From Meghimatium bilineatum (lineage: Eukaryota > Mollusca > Gastropoda > Stylommatophora > Philomycidae): 64,000 nucleotides of DNA. A program made the position numbers and the translations under genes. A model generated the notes under the pieces. The model worked only from the letters and a program-made list of their open reading frames with translations, had not been told where the DNA came from and made no database searches. Positions 199 through 32,407 of the stretch are shown piece after piece. The stretch lies in assembly GCA_034231615.1 (NCBI GenBank), contig CM067299.1:19744498-19808497 (forward strand), written 5' to 3'. The stretch's first letter is position 1, and each line of letters opens with the position of its first letter.

Positions 199-3100
199 CT
201 GAATGGAAAAAAATGATACAATACTAATATCTGTTACTTCACTTTTATGTGATCAATCTGGTGTTATCTTCACCATAAACCAGCAACAAATCACAAAACA
301 GCACAAAAATCACTTGAAACCAAAGAAATTCACATAAAAAGTTTTTTTTAAAAAGAAAAGAAACACAGTGCAAATATATATAACACTGGTTTACACAAAA
401 AAATTAAATTGAAAGTTGTCTATAATTTTTTTAATGAATTAGGAGCATTCTGTGTGACTGAAGCCAAAATGACATCCATTTTTCTCAATCAGGTCAGGTT
501 TTTTTTCTAAAATGATTTAAAAAAATTATATTCTGACTATAGCCTTCTATTCATAGCTACATTTTGTCGATATTTGTAGTTGATTTATGTGTTACATTTC
601 TCACATAAAAAGTATATGAAGAGAAGACATTGAAAAAGGTAAGGACATGTAAATTATGTCATCACTGCAAAATTCAAGACATAAATTTCAATTTCTTCGA
701 CTTTCTCGAGTGCTCAGCAGCAGGGATGTCTCTCTTCAGAGTCCAGCAGTAATCAGCCATCATTACTGCTCCAGCAGTAATCAGCCATCATTACTGCATC
801 CTAATGTCCTTGATACCTGGTCTCCATCTCTTTTATGTCCTGATGGAACCTCTCTCCCTGCTCGTCACTCATTGATCCAAGATTCTCGGGAAACCGATCC
901 ATATGAGAAAATACATAATGCATTTTTATGCTCATTTTGCATCCAAGGTTTTTTAAAGCAGTCAGCATATTGTTGACAACTTCTTCATAGTTACTGGCTA
1001 TGGTGGTGCCCAAAAATTCTTCCCAACCAGAACAATTCATGCTTCCAATTTCAATTTGTTTATTGATTTTTCAAACTCAGGATCTCTGATGAGCTGACAA
1101 ACTTGAGGACCATAAAAAAATGCCACCTTTAACCTCTCTATGGTTAATCCTGGAAAAGCGTGGCACAAGTAAGTGAAGCAGCCACCATCCTTGTCCAGGG
1201 CTTTGGTGAACTGTTTAATCAAGCCAATTTGAAGTACAGGACATCGTGCTGATTCAAGATCAGGATACTTGAGGATCTGTTAAGGGACACTGATCTACTA
1301 TGGGCATTCCCATAGTGCAATGAGTTCAGTTCATAACAATAAATTAAATTCACTATAAATATAACATGATAAATTAAATGTACTATAATTTATCATCATC
1401 AGTTGCCATGTCAGCTGATGTAGGTGATCATGGCTCTCCACAGCTCTCTGTCTACAGTATTATGTATCAAGATTGTTGTTGTTTCCCTGCCGTGCCAGGT
1501 TGTCAAACTGTCTCTGTTGCCTTCAATCTTGCCTGTTGTTACTATGTTCTCCAAACCTCCCTGTCTCATGAAGTGGCCAAAAAATGAAGATTGTCTTTTT
1601 CTTACATTATTGATTAAGGTCAATTTCGCATTTGAGTCTTTCAAGACCTCCACATTAGTTTTTCTGGCAGTCCATGGTATTCTCAGCATGCTCCTGTAAA
1701 ACCACATCTATATTGCCTCTAATTTCCCACTTTCCTGTTTATTTATTGTCAAAGACTTGCATCCATATGTTAGTATAGGAGTTATATAGCACTGCAGTGT
1801 GTTGCCTGGGCCTGAAAGAGGAGCAAATAATAGCAACACTGTTTACCTACCATGCATGTCGTAAAAGGCGACTAAGGAGGTTATGGGATGGAGTTGGCTG
1901 TCCCATCCAATATAGGGTCAGTGACCCAAAGCTATGCCGAAGTCGGATGTGTCAGGCTGAAAGACGCAGATATCGCAGCAATGCTGTAAACCATGACACA
2001 ACTCATTCCATTCTCTGGACTACATCCTGCTAATCTGCAGGAGTTTGAGAAAGAACGCAGAAGAAGAAGAATATAGCACTGCAGAACTCTCTCCCTCACC
2101 TCTAATGACGAGGTCATATTACACAATACATTTTTCATTTTTCTGAATGTTTTTGCCTGCCCTAATCTGTTTCTTATTTCTGTTGAACTTCTTCCATCTG
2201 CTGTAATCATTATACCTAAATATTTTAATTGGTGGACCTGTTTTAATACTATATCATTCACTTTGATCTTGCAAGGTGTGGTATTTTGTTTCTTTGAAAT
2301 AACCATTACTTCTGTTTTCTTTCTAATTAGGAAGAGGCCTTTCTCTTTACTTTCAGTGACTACTACATTAATTAAATATTGAAGGTCTTCCTCACTTTTT
2401 GCAATCAGAACAGTGTTATCCATATATCTCAAATTATTGATGTTATCTCCTGCCACTGATATTCCTGAGATATCAACTATTGCATGCATTATGTTTTCAC
2501 TATATAAAGAGAACTAGTCTGGTGAAAGTACACATCCCTGTCTAACTCCTTGTTTTCTTTGTTGAAAAGGGCCAAATTGATTTCCTACTTTTATTGCTGC
2601 TGTTTGTTGCCAGTACGTGTTCTTGATGATTCTTAAATCCTTACTATCGATGTTCAAATTCTCTAGCATGTATAACTTCATTATGTTTAACTTTACCAAA
2701 TAGTTAGTTAGTCGCTAGATCATCGTCATTGCACTCCAGACAAGTCCATAGGTGTTCAGATCTCTCATTGAGTCTGTCCGCCATTACACGTTGACTGATG
2801 GTCCCAGTACGCCGTTGATTGACCATCATTCTTTCTTGCCCACGAAACCGTTCCTTTCTAGCGGCACCACATTTCAAACCAAACTCCCTTATTCTAGTAG
2901 TCATGGAACAAGCGTCATCGTCACTTGTACAGTCATTTGTTCGTGTGTTTTCACATAGGGCATTCAAAATGTCTGCTCGCGATCCATTGCTTCACCAACA
3001 GTCGTAGTAGCAGAGTTGGCGGACAACCTATCTTTCTCTCATTACCCCGGACTTCTGCATGTCCCGGCACAAAAATAAAAGTCACTTTACGCACACAGGA

Positions 3101-6100
3101 ATTCTTCACTGCATCCAGCCACTGCTCCCGAATGTACCCCGCCTGAACTTTCACAATGATGCTCATGAGTCACTGATTATACAGGCATGCTCGCAGATAG
3201 CCTGTGAGCACACCCATTTAAAAGTTTGGGTTACTGCCAAAACCTCCATTGTCATGCTGCTTATTGTCTGAGCAAATGCACCATTTTCCTCTCTGATGGA
3301 CTCCCCCACTTTTGAGCAATGAAGGCCCAGGGACTCCTGATGTGTCTCTCAACCGACCCATCTGTATATATAATCATATCCACCTTCCCTGGAATTCTCA
3401 CCGATCAGAGCGAGCACCTTCAACTCGACCACTGATGGACACCATTCCGTGCACTCTCTGAGTGTTATTATTACTTCGAAGGCTGTTGGACAATCTGAGG
3501 GCACCAGACTCCATTCGGCACCAGGTAGTACATCCTCCAATCTGCACAAGCTCTGTATAACGTCCTCTGCACGCTCCATCCACAACTCTCCTCTCTTAAG
3601 TCGATTGCCTTTCACTTTGATACAGGGTGTAGAGGGTGCTCTTTATCAGCATTGATTTGTAGGTAGTCCAGCACCCTGCACATTTGTATTTTTTGCTCTG
3701 CAGTTGGGCAATCAAGTAAGTAATGTATGGCCCGTGCTGACGTCTCTCGTACAACCCAAAATTATTCACATGCCTCATTCTGGATTCTATCCAATCTTTC
3801 TGTTTGAGTCTGACTCAGTGTCAGAATTGCCAGTGGTACTCTACCATCACCGCTACCAATCCCTGATACAGCAGAAATAGCAGCCTCTGTTCACATTGAG
3901 CAGCAGCCATAACTTTCATTGCCGCAAGACCTTTAAAAGCCTTTACAATGATGTGATCAAAATGATCTTTGAAACTCAGACTTAGGTCCAACATAACCTC
4001 TAAGTACTTCATTATGCTGATTCTCTTGAGGACATCCCCTTTCAAAGTAACCGATGGCGTGGACGTGTTTACTATGTGATTATTTATGGAAAACCATGTT
4101 ATCGATGCTTTTGATGGATTAACAAAAGCTCCAGAATTACTGTACCATTCTCCTATACGATCAAGCTCCCTCTGCAAATTGCTGGTGATCGTTTTTCTAT
4201 CTCTGCACTGCCTATATATCAAGATGTCATCAGCATAGGACATGGTTCTCCTTGGTCCTGACAGCTTGTAATTTGAACTGTATACACATGAAATAATACT
4301 AGGGACAGAGGTGACCCTTGTGGTAGTCCTGGGTTTATGACTGTTGGTTACGAAGACCAACTCCCACATTTAAGAACAACCTGTCTCTGAAAAAGTGCCG
4401 AGACAATCGACCTGACAACAAAAGGACTTACTTGTAGTTTCAGCATCATGGTCATCAAGAAATCCCAGGGCACTCTGTTATAAGCACCTTCCAGTTCTAT
4501 TGCAGCACTTCACGTCTCCATTCGTTCGTAAAACTCTTCGAAAACGGCTGGGTTGTGCCAAGTCTTCTTACCTGGACGATAACCTCCCAAAGTTGATGGC
4601 AGTCTGTTATTCTTTTCTAGATGTAGGGACAATTTCCACGCAACAATTCTTTTCTAATAGCTTGCTGATCGTATTCTGCATGGTTATGAGCCTGAAACCC
4701 TGTATCTTTGCATGACTTTTGACAGACTTGGGTAGTGGGATCAAGTAACTATGTCTTCTATGGTGCCATTCGCTAGGCTCTTGTTGAACAACATTGCCAG
4801 CTCCTTAAGGTCCTCGTCTGACCTGCCTCTGAGATCATCATACCTAATGTCATTAGGTCCTGATGCAGACTTTTACCAAATGCTTTTGTGTAATCTATAA
4901 AATAGAGGTACAAGTCTGTTTTTACCTCTATAGACCTCTCTATTATTGTTCTCAAAATATATATAGCATTGTTGGTACCTTTGCCTTTTACAAAGCCACA
5001 TTGTTCTGGACATATTTCTGTTTTTATTTTGTTTCTCACTCTCTTCATGATGATTCTGAGGATATTTGTTATTTGGCTCATGAGGCTGACTATATGTGTT
5101 CTTCACATTCGGTTGTCCCTGGTTTCTTAGGTAAGGCTATAAATGTGAATTTTGTTAAGTCATCAGGTAAGTGTCCACTATTATATACGTCATTCAGTAA
5201 TTTTGTGATTATTTCAACTCCGAAGTCACCCAAAGTTACTAATTCCTCTAATGTAATATTTTCTGGTCCTGGGGCTTTGCCATATTTCATGTGTCTTAGG
5301 GCCTTCATTACTTCTGCTGTGGGTATTGATGGACCATTGCCGTTATCTTGTGTGTTTAACTCTGGTCTATTGTCATCATAAAGTTCTATATATTCCGACC
5401 ATCTCTGTACAATATGATCTTTGCCAATTAACACCTGCCCTGTCTTAGATTTTAGACACCCTGTAACTGTTTGTGTTCTTTTCCATGTTATCACATCAAT
5501 TTGCTTATGTGGTAATGTTGTGTCTTGATTGTAATGCCAGATTTATTTTGCTGCTTTGCATTTCTCTCTTATCTCCTTATGTATTTTCTGATATTCCTCT
5601 ATCTTGTGTTAATTTTTTCTTCTGATGCTCATCAATTTTAATATTTCTTCAGTCATCCATTTTTGTTTTGATATGTTTTACTTGTGGTATTATCTTTAGA
5701 TGTTTATCTAAATATGGCATGGTAAATTAAATGATTCTTTATGAGCCAGCATCACAGCACTGGGGACATTCCCATTAGTTGTTAGTTCTCTGGATCTTTC
5801 CAGATAGGAAGCACTTTCTTCCCTCTCCCTTGATCATTCCCATTTCTATTTCTATTATTCTCTGAATTTGAACATTGTCTCTTTCAGCCACCTCTTTATC
5901 ACTTTGTAGTGCAACCATAACTGTCCGAATTGACTAAAATCGGTCTCTTCTTATCACTGACCCATCCATTATAGTATTACCCACCGATTCATCAGATCCA
6001 TCATTGCCTCTAACTCTTGAATGACCTGGATAGTAGATCTATGTGATATTTTGAAAGTTGCAGAGAAGAGCAACACGCTTCTTTCTTATCAAGAACATTT

Positions 6101-25881: not shown

Positions 25882-28800
25882 GTACGATATATAATTTCAT
25901 TTTGCCACTGTGTTTAAAAAAAGGATAGTCGACTTTTGTTTGTGTTGATGTGGTCAGGTGGAAGTGTCGATCCCAGACTGAAAGAAAGCAATGAATTGAA
26001 AATGAAATGCATGCTTTTTGTCGTTATTCTATAGACATACAAAGAATAGAATGCGAATAACAATATGTTAATGTTTAAAAATCAAAACACAAACACACAA
26101 AATGTGTAATCTAGATTTAGGTCTAGTCTACTATTTTATTTTCATATGATGATGATTGTCTAAGTATTGTCATTGATTGATACTATCTCATCTGACTATT
26201 ACTATTGATACATTTATTATTTATTAACATCTGCTGGAAATCTAGTAGTAGGGGAACTATTTGATTCGTAGTCCTGCTACAAGAGAGTAGGTGTAGATCT
26301 ATAAATAAACCGTGTAGTGTATAATAATAATAAAAATACAAAGGTGGATTAGGGCTATTAAATTATGAATGACTAGGGCTTAAAGGCGCCTATAGAATAT
26401 TACTAGTAATATAATTATTTAAACAAGCAGCTATGGTAAAGTAATATTTCCATGGTGTGCAGAATACAACTCAATTTTACTGCACATTTAAAAAAAAACT
26501 GTTTTAATTTCTGTAATCTGCCATGTTGATGAAGTTCAGCAGATTAACTTGAATTTAATTTATTTTCCCCAATTGTACAAGCAAAAAAATCTTGATTAAA
26601 GTTCTGTCTGTCAAACATCAGCCCCTTCCTAGCTAGGCTTAGGGCCTATAATCTTAATTAAGCTAGAATGCTTTGTTTTCTTTTCCAATATCAAGGAACC
26701 CCACAAGTTCAGTACACATTATTATGTCAGTCAAAAATCTTAGCGAGGCACAAAAATCTTTTCCTCAATGCACCCCCCCCCCCAAATTCATATCAATAGA
26801 GATGAATTCACACCTACCATTGTAACTGAAAAAAACAACAACTACAAAATGTCGGCTACTTTGAATATCTTGGGTTAACCATCAACACCACTGTAGATTG
26901 TACTGCAAAGATTAGGAAGAGATTAACAATATCCTTAAAAAAAAATCACAGATAAAAAATCTATGGCAAGGGGCAAACAGAAAAATAAAGTTACCAACTA
27001 TTAAGAAGCAATAGTTTTCCAATGGCAACATATAATTGTGAGATGTGGGCAATGACACCTCCAATGGAAAAGAAAATGTCATCATTTGAAATGAAATGTT
27101 ATAGAAAGGTCCTAAGAGTATCATGGACGGAAAAATGAACCAATGCAGACATCTGTAAAGACCTGAACATAGAAGAAGAATGGTTCCTAAAAACTATCAA
27201 AAAATGCCAGGGCATCAGCTCTCTCATTTTAAGAGTTCAAGGGTTAGTGCATATAGTGATAGTAATTTTATATCAGCCCCTAACTGGCCACGTAAAAAAG
27301 ACTTTGGGCAGACTTTGTCTACCCCTGGTCTAGCAAAATACTTGTCCACATCTGCTGTATCACCTGAGAACTGATTGAGAATATATGAGGATAGCAGGTT
27401 GTCATTACATGTAGCTTTTTGAGGGTATCCTTATCAGAACATGTGGGATCACCTATTTTTTCAAAATGAGCAAACATAGTTTCGTCAGGAACATTACTTC
27501 TCTTATTTGGAACTTCAAAGCCCTGCTACTGCTTAGTTCAATTTCTAGTTAAATTGTATTTTTTAAAATTTCTTTCTTCTTCCATTTTTACAAGTAGGCC
27601 TAATGACTCTTGTGGTACTGAGACCTAATGGCATATACTAGTGTTAAATGTTTGTGGTCCACAAGGAACTTATACACCTGTTCAGTGAGTGTATTGTTGT
27701 TGTTGCCTGTGTGTCGATTGACCAGTCCATATTCATAGTAACTTGAAAATATAAACATTGGAAGTCTTGACTAAAATTGAATTTTCTTTTTAGAGAAGCA
27801 GTGTGGTCGAATTCTGAAAATGTATCAACTCAAGTTGTGAGCTGAATGTGCCAACTGAACAGAACTGGTTCAAATCCATTCTACTGCCTTATGATGATTT
27901 CTTCCCGTAGTAATCTTGGCTAAAGTTTTTGTATACTATGACAACAGCTTATAATTTGTATTGATGTAATGATTGTAAAGTATCCATTTTCCATGCTACT
28001 GAGGCATTTTGTAGAATATGGTGTTAGATCCATATTTGTTTTCATTGGGTAATGCCATATGTAAGGATGAAATGGTTAGTATCACACACATTACCTTGAC
28101 GATCTGGTATCCATTTTCTTAGGCTGGTTTAACTTAGGGGAGCGACAGTAAAATAACTGTCATTATTTACACACTGCTTACACACTGCATGTCTTGTCTC
28201 AGTTTTTCTTTTTTGTCAAATGGTCTACATGGATGACAAAAAGATGCAGGACAGTGGACAGTGCACCTTTGTCTTTTTCTGGGAGACTTCTAGGTGGCAG
28301 GAAATTCTAGATGTGCCATCACTGTAGATGAGCCAACATATCTGACATAATAATGCTGAACTAGTTGTAAGGCCTGTCCCACATTTGCCTCTTTCAGGAT
28401 GTCTTCGTTAGATTTTTTAGCTGTCCATTCTTCTATAGAATCACATCTTTGTTGGGGTGCAAAGGGAACGCATTGCTCTAGGCGGACCCAGGGTTAGCAG
28501 ATAACCAAGATCCCAAATGTACCTCCACGTGGTGCACCCTGGAAACAGAAATACAGCAGCTCGTGCTGATTCTGGCCAAATCTTTTGGGGATCGTGTCCG
28601 AGAATGTGGAGGTAGCAGATGGAAAGAGATTTGACTGCACAAGAGACAGACAATATCTCCGACACCACCAGCATCACTACATATAGCAACACTGTCGACA
28701 TACAGTGAAGCTAGTCAGCCCAGTCCGAACATTGAAGGGGCGGCCAATGTAAAATGCACGTAAAGGTAAATGCATGGCGAGAGACAAATATGTTTCACAC

Positions 28801-31800
28801 AGAGTACAATGAAACAATGAAAGGGCAGAACAGCGCTAGAGGGCAGCGCGAACTGCAAATAGAAAGTGAAAAGTCCCTAGGAAAGGGAACTACAAGATCC
28901 GTCAGCTCGAGACGGGCTTCTAGTTACCAGAGTTCCTAACAGGCAGAGACCCAGACAAATCCATCGGCGTTTGGTAAAGCAAAAGACCTAACCCAACTCT
29001 AATGTCGAGCCTTCCTAAACCGGAAATATGCTTGCAAAGAGAAAGGGTTCTGTACCCGATGGGTGTAGGCAAGAAAGGGACAACGATGGCAGTCCTGGCC
29101 CAACTCTACTGTCAAGGTTTCCTATACCGGAAGTAACTTGCAGAGAGAAAGGGTTCTGTACTCGATTCGCTCAGGCACAAAAGGGACAACGATTTAGCCC
29201 TGGCCCAACTCTACTGTCAGGTTTTCCTACACCGGAAATACACTTGAAGAGAGAAAGGGTTCAGTACCTGATGGGCTCAGGCGCTATTGGGACAAGGACG
29301 CTCAGCTCGAGAACGCCTTGCTCTCAAACGCGTGGTGTGAGACTCGAACTTGGACGAGGGGTACACGATGTCGGTGAATGACACCTCGGCTAAGAGGGCG
29401 AAAGAGCCAGGGTCCAACTCCTCTGTTGAGTTCTTCCCCTTAAGGAACCAGGCTCACGGATGAGAAACGGTTCAGTACCCAATGGGCACAGGCACAGCAC
29501 GTCCAATTACACGAGACAAGTTCATAGACAGTGGAACACCTCGTTTGAGTCAGACTAAGAGCAAGAAAATAGTCTGGGCGAAGAGTCTCCACTACTCGTG
29601 CCTGGAGACAGATATAGAGGCTGTCACAGGCTAAGGGTAGCCCACCCGAATTGTCAAGGCATGCCGAAATCGGATGTGCTAGGCCTACAAGGCGCATAAC
29701 GGTGGCACAACGTAATCACGCTCCCGGCGGAAATCGCACGGATATCCGTGATGGTTACAATGGAGCGAACGAAAAACAAACAAACAAACATCTTTGTTGC
29801 CTCTAATTTTCCCTTATCCTTTTAATTTATTGTCCATGGCTGACATCCATATGTTAGAATATGTGTTATGAAGCTCTGAAAACATTCTCAGCTCTATTGA
29901 CAGGGACATATTACACAGTATATTTTTCAGTTTTTGGAATGCTGCTTTTGCCTGCCCTATTCTGATTTTTAATTTCTGTTGAACTTCTTCATTCTGATGT
30001 CCTCATTGTTCCTAAATGATGTGTACACAAGTTATAAAGGGTAAATTATCAACACTACTAGATCAATGGCAAGATAATAGAAGTAAGTAAATGCACACAC
30101 AGCTGCTAGTCAATCAGGATATTGAAAACTGGCAGTAACCGTAGCAAACATAAATCAGTGTTATTTGATACAATTTAAATCAATCTTTATATTTTCAGAT
30201 TTTTTCCACACGGAGTCCCTTTCTCCGGTAGACCAATGACAGAACAAAAAACTTCAAGCATCCGAAGCCCATCAAGATCTGCTCTGGATGCTAAACCAGG
30301 AATGGAAAATAAACCCCCAGATTTAAATACTTGTAAAGATGTTAAGTTTGAACTATCAGCATCACTCTGCAGATTCTCCTACAATACAAATCCATTCCTT
30401 ATTAACCCTAGACCTGTGCCTGATACACCAACAGTAGAAATGAAATCTGTTCCGCACCGCAGAAAGACTGTTAGAGACATTCGATTGCGGCCGCGGCAAA
30501 CACTTTGCTTCAAATGCAAAGCAGCAATTCATGAAAGTCACAAAATTCATATCTCACAGGGCAACTCTCATAGTACTGTTAACAATACAGCATTGAAGCT
30601 GATACCACCAAACACATACACTTTTAGAAGCAGTGCTGATTCTTCTGCTCACTCTATACCTCCTTTGCCACCTGTTACTCGGAAAAGAAAAAAGTCGCTT
30701 CAATCACCCATGGTTCTTCTAGAAGATATACAGTTAAAGTCCAATAAAATTTCCCAGGAAAAGACTTCAAAAGAGCCCAGTAACACAGGTGACTCATCTA
30801 GTCAACTTCCTAGCAAAGGTGTGAAAAGGAGTAATAGCGGTAACAAACTTGCAGACTTTGGAAATAGAAAACCAGCAAGTGCCAAAGTCAGAAGTCATCG
30901 TTCATCAAGCTCAGGTAGTGTCAACACAGGAAATGATTTCATACAAATTATTGATGATTCTGAAAGCAGCAAAGGAAATTCAGTCAATAGTAAAAGCAGT
31001 AAAAAGAAATGCATAATTTCTAATGCTTGTAATGCAAAGCCATCTCCAGCAATCAAAATTACAATTGGTGATGGTGCTATCATCAAAATACCACCAAGAC
31101 TCCCAGATAGAGCAGCTGATCATAATGATCATGAACTTCCAATACCAAAGCTTAAAATTCTTGACTCCTCTGGACCAGTTGAGCATCATGCACATAAAAA
31201 GGCAAAGAAAGCAGCTAAAAAAGCAAAAGAACGTGATAAATGTAAGACTAGTGCTAGTAAAACAGAAACTTATACAGACCTAAAACAAGATGAAATGGTG
31301 CCTTCTAAATCACAGAAAAAGCATAAAAAGAAACATAGACATCGGCATGATAGCCCTGTGCCATTACATGCCTATAGTGAAGATGATGTTCAAGTATCTT
31401 CATGCCCAAAGAAAAACAAAAGTGATACTGATGTTATTTTTCCTAGCAATGATGGCGTAGAAGATCAGATCAGTGATGTGAAAGTGAACAGTGTCTCCTT
31501 GTGTAGAGATGCAGAAAATTATGAAAATACATTACCAGTTGTGGATAATATAAACAAACCCAGACCAAGACTTGTTTATACATGGAGGCAAAATCAAGGA
31601 CTCTCACGAGTATCATCTTCACCTAGAGAATCAGCTCCTAGTGTATCTCCAAAGTATTTGATTAAAAGTTCGCCCAGTATTATACCCATAGGCAGTTCCC
31701 CCCACAGAAGAAAAAATGCCTCTCCAGCTCGAGTAGTAACAGCATCACCAAATTGGCATTTTGCAGCATCTCCAAAATGCATGCTCAAAGATTATCCTCT

Positions 31801-32407
31801 CCAGAACTTGAGTGACAGCACATTTTCATCTGGCCGCAACTCGGAACCTGTGCAGTCTTCCAATTATGGAATAGTGCATACTTCTGAAGACAGCCATTCT
31901 CAATCCAGTGAAGCAGAATCTCATTTAAGTGACTTTAGTGATGATTCTGGTGATGACTGTATAGATGACTTTTTTCCTGGACCACAGTCACCACCTAGAG
32001 AGGAAGATGACAAAGACATTATTAAACCACTGATGATGAAAATTCAAACACAGAATGTTGATGGATGTGTTCTAGAAGAAGGGCGTGAGATTCGAGTTGG
32101 TGATATTGTTTGGGGAAAGATTCAAGGATTTCCATGGTGGCCAGGCCGTGTGTCTAATATAACAGTAACACAGCGTGACAATGATGTTGTCATTACTCAG
32201 GTAGCAAATGTAGCATGGTTTGGGTCAAATACAGTTTCACATATGCATTGTTCAGATCTGTTTCCATTTATGGAAGATTTCAAAGCTCGTTACAATAAAA
32301 AAAAGAAGGGACAATATAGATTGGCTATTAAACAAGCAACCACAGCAGCCCAAAGATTAGCTGCGGAATCACATAGAGAATTTTTGATTGAAGATTATGA
32401 ATTATAA
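25733..32407 (+). CDS. PWWP2A/PWWP2B-like PWWP-domain chromatin protein, two exons
   Basis: Exons 25733-25881 and 30199-32407 (stop TAA) join in phase 2 to 785 residues. Exon 1 encodes VRLTVIVEYSFENIIAVYLV and HNGKEYRGVLLENDTG; the joint reads DTGFFPHGVPFSG. Vertebrate PWWP2A has the equivalent YGEKIFTG-L-D, GP-GIP order at its own exon 1/2 boundary. Next comes a basic stretch with CFKCK (about 153-157), a long low-complexity Ser/Lys middle with a nuclear-type KKAKKAAKKAKERDK, and an acidic patch before the PWWP domain at about 680-770 (FPWWPG at 694-699). Vertebrate PWWP2A/B bind H2A.Z or methylated nucleosomes and recruit MTA1-HDAC; I infer a similar nuclear role. Human PWWP2A has about 755 residues. 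I cannot decide between A and B; an invertebrate single-copy ancestor is likely. Confidence 0.9.
25890..26820. other. PWWP2 intron, AT-rich, unassigned
   Basis: First 0.9 kb of the 4.3 kb intron. A C10 run lies near 26770. Nothing else recognised. Confidence 0.4.
26830..27225 (+). mobile_element. CR1/Jockey-like LINE fragment in PWWP2 intron
   Basis: Reads GYFEYLGLTINTTVDCTAKI, then MATYNCEMWAMTPPMEKKMS, FEMKCYRKVLRVSWTEK and DLNIEEEWFLKTIKK with frame shifts: the F.YLG, C..W, FEMWCYRR.LR.SWT and N..VL pattern of ORF2 C-termini. Confidence 0.7.
27240..27830 (-). other. Coding-like remnant of unknown identity
   Basis: Minus strand reads VPDETMFAHFEKIGDPTCSD, then after a frame change LLSSYILNQFSGDTADVDKY and FARPGVDKVCPKSFLRGQLG. 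Composition looks protein-like but I do not recognise the family. It could be a transposase remnant. Confidence 0.3.
28455..29787 (+). mobile_element. 1333-bp GC-rich non-autonomous retroposon with internal repeats and (AAAC)n tail
   Basis: Bounded by a perfect 12-bp duplication acatctttgttg (28443-28454 and 29788-29799). GC- and CpG-rich against AT-rich flanks. Four related internal units of about 105 bp start near 28992, 29099, 29204 and 29413, each with cccaactct, accggaa, agagaaagggttc and gta.c.gatgggc-like segments. Near the 3' end lies tgccgaaatcggatgtgcta, shared with the gaagaag SINE, then gcgaacgaaaaacaaacaaa. The longest ORF (29028-29381, 117 codons) just follows the repeats and resembles nothing I know. 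It looks like a single complete insertion, mobilised in trans. Confidence 0.82.
28992..29510 (+). repeat. About four diverged ~105-bp internal units of the retroposon
   Basis: Units begin with (c/t)ccaactct(a/c)(a/c)tgt at about 28992, 29099, 29204 and 29413. The first three are contiguous; an extra 110 bp separates the fourth. They diverge by roughly 15-35 percent by eye. Confidence 0.75.
30199..32407 (+). CDS. PWWP2-like exon 2 (long terminal exon with PWWP domain)
   Basis: Acceptor tatattttcag ends at 30198. The frame is open from 30199, so the first ATG (30236) is internal: FFPHGVPFSGRP precedes it and belongs to the conserved block. The domain core RVGDIVWGKIQGFPWWPGRV is intact, with WFGSNTVS and FKARYNKKKKGQYRLAIKQA following, as in vertebrate PWWP2 proteins (RFNKKRKGLYRKAI). 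Stop at 32405-32407. Confidence 0.93.

Follow-up and report, generated by a model that had tools for sequence, protein, structure and literature searches.

A 64,000-nucleotide stretch of the genome of the slug Meghimatium bilineatum (GenBank assembly GCA_034231615.1, contig CM067299.1, positions 19,744,498 to 19,808,497 of the forward strand; hereafter the window) carries a 1334-bp insert that very probably belongs to a family of non-autonomous retroposons mobilised by a long interspersed nuclear element (LINE) and bearing, at the exact 5′ end, a predicted self-cleaving ribozyme resembling that of hepatitis delta virus (HDV). The retroposon looks like a chimera composed of a ribozyme head, a body of tandem units and the tail of a short interspersed nuclear element (SINE). 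An earlier note, made from the letters of the window alone, had described the insert as a long non-autonomous RNA-borne element, a description borne out by the fixed ends, varied target-site duplications (TSDs) and thousands of copies reported below. The coordinates of all features are collected in Table 1.

The insertion and its mapped ends are genuine. The perfect 12-bp duplication ACATCTTTGTTG that the earlier note had seen at both ends is present and bounds the insert. Its right end stays at 29787 as first drawn, whereas the start moves from 28455 to 28454, a G that we assign to the element because all of the 20 top copies found in the genome begin with GGGGT; this G may belong to the TSD as well, and the effective TSD is 11–12 bp. 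When the flanks are joined, they align unbroken across the joint with two related repeats (L011, 78%, and L045, 77%) over 252 bp, in agreement with the claim that the insertion split a LINE whose halves resume at the joint, just 27 bp of these matches falling to its left; a third match is weaker (70.5%) and extends 65 bp to the left. The interrupted flank repeat also occurs elsewhere in the window (1687–1794 and 2095–2221), there separated by a SINE, in a copy that overlaps a minus-strand open reading frame (ORF) with an RVT_1 domain. It is this unbroken match in related repeats, together with the TSD and the inner units, that establishes the insertion and its ends as real.

A DNA search of the source genome (1.61 Gb, 32 contigs) returned 4985 first-look candidates, the best 40 of which were scored; the copies other than the window's own had 99% identity, and 34 of the 40, the window's own included, span bases 1 to 1333. 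The exact first 40 bases occur at 5004 places and the exact 41-mer at the 3′ end at 3847, counts that are lower bounds on copy number, and the reversed control gave 0 in each case. What the genome holds is therefore a true family, neither single-copy nor variable in its end points. Nineteen of the 20 best copies differ from the majority sequence at 1–4 positions over 1317 columns (the window copy at 9), a figure that overstates the youth of the family, since these copies were picked by similarity to the window copy; the long matches on contig C1 are mostly 91–99% identical to it. The family is dispersed, very abundant and apparently young. One exact 23-mer each did not detect it in a viral contig collection or a genome contig collection.

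Perfect duplications of 11–14 bp flank 43 of the 49 copies examined; three of the others show longer matches into the flanks and three have no duplication of at least 7 bp. Insertions prefer TTY/AC sites, with T at −2 in 37 and A at +1 in 37 of the 46 copies that have any perfect TSD. We followed the first 30 matches to the exact 3′ 41-mer on C1 upstream: 27 extend to the 5′ end and three are 5′-truncated, two of the latter with visible duplications. The hallmarks of target-primed reverse transcription are thus all present (variable target duplications, a simple-repeat tail and 5′ truncation), and from the duplications and the truncation we conclude that a LINE enzyme moves the retroposon; the duplications, the site preference and the truncations are traces left by target-primed reverse transcription by such an enzyme. 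Two copies 454 kb apart (L034 and L035; G000 C1, near 5.54 and 6.00 Mb) have identical flanks and TSD and count as one insertion event; either the segment was duplicated in the genome or the assembly contains it twice. The 3′ flanks of L087 and L088 place element copies in or beside short tandem repeats with a unit resembling the target sequence.

At the 5′ end, a permissive Rfam scan matched drz-agam-1 at 28499–28589, with P1 lying outside the model match. The P1 helix opens on the very first base of the element, and this coincidence with the independently mapped insertion end is an independent point for a ribozyme. In HDV the first P1 pair is a G-U wobble, as it is here. The predicted catalytic C (28576), in J4/2, is placed by comparison with the HDV reference core. 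The parts of the nested double pseudoknot (P2, P3 and P1.1) are all present as predicted pairings, and so, by prediction, are the active-site segments L3 (UCCACGU) and J4/2 (GCCAA). HDV-like ribozymes have a P1 of 6–7 bp with its first base at the cleavage site (PMC3774820, PMC4908430), an arrangement also found here, where GGGGUGC pairs with GCACCCU and the cut is predicted before the first G. The conserved L3 G of HDV-like ribozymes, which pairs with an L3 U (PMC3774820), occurs in the retroposon together with that U; the retroposon core CCTCCACGTGGT is one base away from CCTCCTCGTGGT, a sequence contained in primers for the catalytic region of Drosophila R2 (PMC3414825); and Agam-2 ribozymes are activated by large J1/2 helices (PMC4908430). 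The suggestion that the insert is a structured non-coding RNA accordingly survives in a specific form, a predicted HDV-like ribozyme at the 5′ end and a structured SINE module at the 3′ end. A twister or hammerhead ribozyme at a SINE 5′ end, also considered, had no Rfam support. Subfamilies have either A or T at element position 130 (window 28583), and the T creates a TTTT run at the border of J4/2 and P2, a possible polymerase III stop.

The final 127 bp of the retroposon also occur as a separately mobile short SINE, of which four AAAC-tailed copies (L029, L052, L054 and L058) start, by eye, at about the element's ATGCC. A pattern built on TGCCGAARNCGGATGTG, made so as to pass over most copies of the full element, is found at 1362 places in the genome (control 0). 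Of the first 30 places, 25 are of the gaagaag SINE type, one of these lacking the 3′ end, and three are the AAAC-tailed L052, L054 and L058. The gaagaag SINE itself (window 1795–2072 and L051–L080) is abundant, about 165 bp long, and has a GAAGAAG tail and the TGCCGAARNCGGATGTG domain; its copy in the window extends further at the 5′ side. We aligned 30 sequences, namely the 30 loci less two with a missing end, plus the element and the window SINE, and almost every row can form the stem GUGnnn...nnnCAC. Within this stem, one pair is U-A in 22 rows and C-G in 6, with one gap, and the adjacent pair is C-G in 17, U-G in 6 and U-A in 3, unpaired in 3 and a gap in one. The earlier observation that the 3′ segment is shared with the window's gaagaag SINE is thereby confirmed and extended to a covarying stem and independent SINE copies, and the LINE enzyme probably binds at this structured module. 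SINEs are short, under about 600 bp; at 1334 bp the retroposon exceeds their usual length, and on account of this length and of the lack of a known head we do not file it as a SINE. With regard to the RNA polymerase III heads typical of SINEs (tRNA, 5S or 7SL), the window contains no tRNA, and no Rfam family exceeded its cut-off. The retroposon also falls outside the definition of a retrozyme, with no hammerhead in the Rfam scan and dispersed copies that have their own duplications.

Between the two ends, the body contains the four diverged internal units of about 105 bp that the earlier note had recognised, three of them contiguous and the fourth apart. Twenty-six copies with both ends found by pattern, drawn from the first 30 places on C1, form what we call the C1 set; 10 of them are shorter by about one internal unit, and one other carries a larger deletion. 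The retroposon has no ORF signal, as had been claimed, its longest ATG ORF (117 aa) being equalled or exceeded in 43 of 300 shuffles. Its composition had been described as GC- and CpG-rich: the GC contrast is real (0.50 inside, 0.367 in the rest of the window), whereas its CpG observed/expected ratio (0.74, against 0.35 outside) is not special, since values of up to 0.83 occur elsewhere in the window.

From these parts we infer a cycle in which RNA would read through a copy, from a host or an internal promoter, and its front would fold into the ribozyme and cut just before the first G, so that the released RNA always has the same 5′ end. A LINE reverse transcriptase would then take up the structured 3′ SINE module and the AAAC tail, nick TTY/AC-like sites, prime on the tail and leave duplications of 11–14 bp. 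As to origin, we propose tentatively, and at slightly less than an even chance, that a SINE lineage gained the HDV-like ribozyme through template switching or fusion, rather than by deletion of a LINE, and, with an RNA able to cut itself out of any host transcript, spread to thousands of copies.

Two sets of results weigh against this account, one from the search for a LINE partner and the other from the ribozyme itself. With regard to the first, an RVT_1 search, in which the best 150 of 82272 candidates were scored, found RTE-type LINE ORFs of up to 1027 aa. Agam-1 ribozymes are located in RTE-type LINEs. RTE elements are reported to be dominant in a slug genome (PMC12506671). The one LINE family examined closely is an intact RTE family with a (GAT)n tail, irregular 5′ joints and duplications of 7–11 bp (by eye, 5 copies), and its 5′ end showed no ribozyme in Rfam at E up to 3 or with our ribozyme descriptor; this family is a possible partner at most. 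Two of its copies (L081 1225–4302 and L082 1345–4302) have frames open for 1026 and 986 aa and are 99.7% identical to each other over 2960 bp, and this LINE is apparently young. Outside the family, the exact ribozyme core is found at close to the chance level (17 matches, control 10), and the exact 3′ 24-mer preceded by four other bases occurs at 0 places in the genome.

The last two results bear equally on the strongest alternative, that the retroposon is an internally deleted element (SIDE) in the strict sense, descended from a resident autonomous LINE with the same ribozyme and the same 3′ end. There is precedent for it, in that the non-autonomous elements with HDV-like ribozymes in the papers cited here are SIDEs or hybrids of them (R2 SIDE, PMC3414825; NARTc, PMC4035085). 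Against it, the matches of the 3′ module are to short SINEs, and the three fetched 5′ ends that lack the exact 3′ 41-mer turned out to belong to usual family copies in which the tail or the 3′ part is altered. The surplus of exact 5′ over exact 3′ ends had suggested that another element shares this head, an idea dropped because of these three loci. Searches with exact patterns would miss a diverged parent LINE, and a genome-wide search with RF01787, which returned nothing among the best 56 of 79616 candidates, was one in which no control matched either. We consider descent by deletion unlikely, though a serious competitor, and do not file the retroposon as a SIDE because exact patterns revealed no resident LINE from which it could derive.

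The second set of results bears on the possibility that we are dealing with a long retroposon of an ordinary kind, SINE-like or composite, whose 5′ end is set by a promoter start site, the HDV-like fold being a coincidence or a dead relic. Ribozyme activity is here a prediction from sequence, and several observations would suit such a relic: the drz-agam-1 score of 21.1 bits (E 0.27) lies below the cut-off of 37 bits; bases 61–141, the remainder of the ribozyme, have a diversity in the C1 set of 0.0315, similar to that of the body; and the 157 nt at the 5′ end have an unremarkable nested folding energy (z −0.27), in a type of fold in which the pseudoknot is impossible. No helix covariation appeared in 46 copies, within a family of low divergence. 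P1′ position 37 is changed at 97 places genome-wide, and among the 22 displayed one is not the element, 11 are C-to-A and 8 are C-to-T, a change that leaves a G-U pair; a double change compensating the C-to-A was sought throughout the genome and found at 0 places.

Coincidence is nevertheless hard to reconcile with a full core set whose P1 begins on the first base of the element. A descriptor scan of both strands of the window gave one match, at 28454; there were 0 matches in 18 Mb of random sequence (8 Mb of element composition and 10 Mb of window composition), and over 94 loci (298 kb) 44 of 52 element 5′ ends matched, with 0 matches elsewhere. The descriptor was composed after the sequence had been seen, which means that these chance figures overstate the surprise somewhat. 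A stricter sequence pattern is kept in 38 of 50 copies. Over the first 170 nt of the 46 copies, a set that includes 20 selected by similarity, three substitutions are common to at least 9 copies and lie in L3, P4 and J4/2, while positions of P1, P2 and P3 are changed in 0–3 copies each, and two of the three P1′ changes convert the G-U pair to G-C. Among the 14 segments compared in the C1 set, bases 1–60 are the least diverse (0.0076), and the final 170 are also low (0.012). Taken together, these data make a coincidental or defunct fold improbable, and our ribozyme call rests on motif and position rather than on covariation, given the lack of a compensated P1 change and the ordinary energy. The remaining idea, also raised in the earlier note, of a processed host non-coding RNA turned retroposon would suit a long, GC-rich, non-coding insert whose tandem units match nothing in Rfam, but it is very improbable, since no Rfam family exceeds the cut-off, what is recognised is a ribozyme, tandem units and a SINE, and the identified parts belong to mobile elements.

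In the papers cited here, retroelements with an HDV-like ribozyme at the 5′ end are LINEs or elements that arose from LINEs by deletion or hybridisation, mainly in rDNA and trypanosomatids. By analogy, the retroposon with its predicted ribozyme may work like the R2/R1 SIDEs and NARTc/SIDER, its nearest known counterparts. For R2 SIDEs and R2/R1 hybrids it is enough to start with a ribozyme and to end in a sequence bound by a LINE protein (PMC3414825). The Drosophila R2/R1 hybrids are likewise non-autonomous, join an HDV-like 5′ ribozyme to the 3′ end of another element, show the core CCUCC.CGUGGU in primers, and have a target duplication of LINE type, which measures 14 bp at the R1 site; they differ in residing in 28S rDNA and relying on 28S co-transcription (PMC3414825), whereas the retroposon is dispersed in thousands of copies and ends in a SINE module. 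NARTc/SIDER of trypanosomatids, short retroposons that are likewise non-autonomous, also begin with an HDV-like ribozyme, but they are truncated or degenerate L1Tc/ingi LINEs (PMC4035085), and exact patterns found no such parent here. Anopheles drz-Agam-1/Agam-2 share the core sequence and, in Agam-2, a structured J1/2 (P1.2) and an extended P2 (12 bp, compared with 9 bp in the retroposon; PMC4908430); in contrast to them, the retroposon has a sub-threshold Rfam match, two predicted J1/2 hairpins and no downstream coding LINE. Metazoan non-LTR retrozymes, known in mussel, are similarly non-coding, non-autonomous and ribozyme-bearing, but contain hammerheads in short tandem repeats and give RNAs of about 170–400 nt, many of them circular (PMC7229834, PMC7761336), unlike the single HDV-like ribozyme and dispersed 1.3-kb single copies described here. 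Our searches of the open-licence literature met with no gastropod, and no dispersed animal element of SINE-like type, that was described as carrying an HDV-like ribozyme, and the mollusc SINE literature gave no lead on the family.

If our reading is correct, a self-cutting 5′ end can help a non-coding RNA to become a successful genomic parasite, and wherever a copy lies in sense orientation within an intron, the host pre-mRNA may be cut by it. The thousands of natural insertions would offer a test bed for damage to host transcripts by intronic ribozymes. The predicted ribozyme also points to a blind spot of Rfam, where it stays below cut-off.

Table 1 Features of the retroposon copy in the window.
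Feature	Position	Strand	Basis
Whole retroposon copy (1334 bp)	28454..29787	+	Flanking TSDs; related repeats that show the empty site; copies of full length
5′ TSD ACATCTTTGTTG, final G common to element	28443..28454	.	Perfect repeat; compared over 49 copies
Predicted HDV-like ribozyme; self-cleavage would fall 5′ of G28454	28454..28593	+	Sub-threshold Rfam match; descriptor scans
P1 5′ strand GGGGUGC	28454..28460	+	Pairs with 28534–28540 GCACCCU; G1-U wobble at predicted cleavage site
J1/2, 48 nt, two predicted hairpins (P1.2-like)	28461..28508	+	−13.9 kcal/mol folded alone
P2 5′ strand GAUCCCAAA	28509..28517	+	Pairs with 28584–28593, one bulged G
P3 (ACC/GGU) and L3 UCCACGU	28521..28533	+	L3 CC 28525–28526 for P1.1
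P1 3′ strand GCACCCU and P1.1 GG (28541–28542)	28534..28542	+	Pairing pattern, descriptor
P4 stem-loop, two 5-bp helices	28546..28574	+	Folding, pairing pattern
J4/2 GCCAAAUCU, starts GCCAAA; predicted catalytic C28576	28575..28583	+	Position relative to HDV core
P2 3′ strand UUUGGGGAUC	28584..28593	+	Pairs with GAUCCCAAA
Three tandem units, ~106 bp each	28984..29300	+	Repeat comparison
Fourth, more diverged unit	~29409..29512	+	Repeat comparison
3′ module with stem-loops and the (AAAC)n tail; also occurs on its own as a short SINE	29661..29787	+	Independent copies, alignment
(AAAC)n tail	29772..29787	+	Sequence; copies compared for TSDs
3′ TSD ACATCTTTGTTG	29788..29799	.	Perfect repeat

Downstream of the retroposon, an ORF on the plus strand (30179–32404) carries a PWWP domain (E 4.6e-15), and an acceptor-like TTTTCAG lies at 30192–30198. 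The earlier note had put the insert in a PWWP2 intron; a PWWP-domain ORF is there, and the retroposon likely sits in an intron of this PWWP gene in sense orientation, which would make it one of the possible self-cutting sites, here beside a PWWP gene. A COX1-like fragment that resembles COX1 of pulmonate gastropods lies in the nuclear genome (L090, G000 C2:121989780-121990450); it is a partial copy of the mitochondrial gene and the single match given by the search for the COX1 family.

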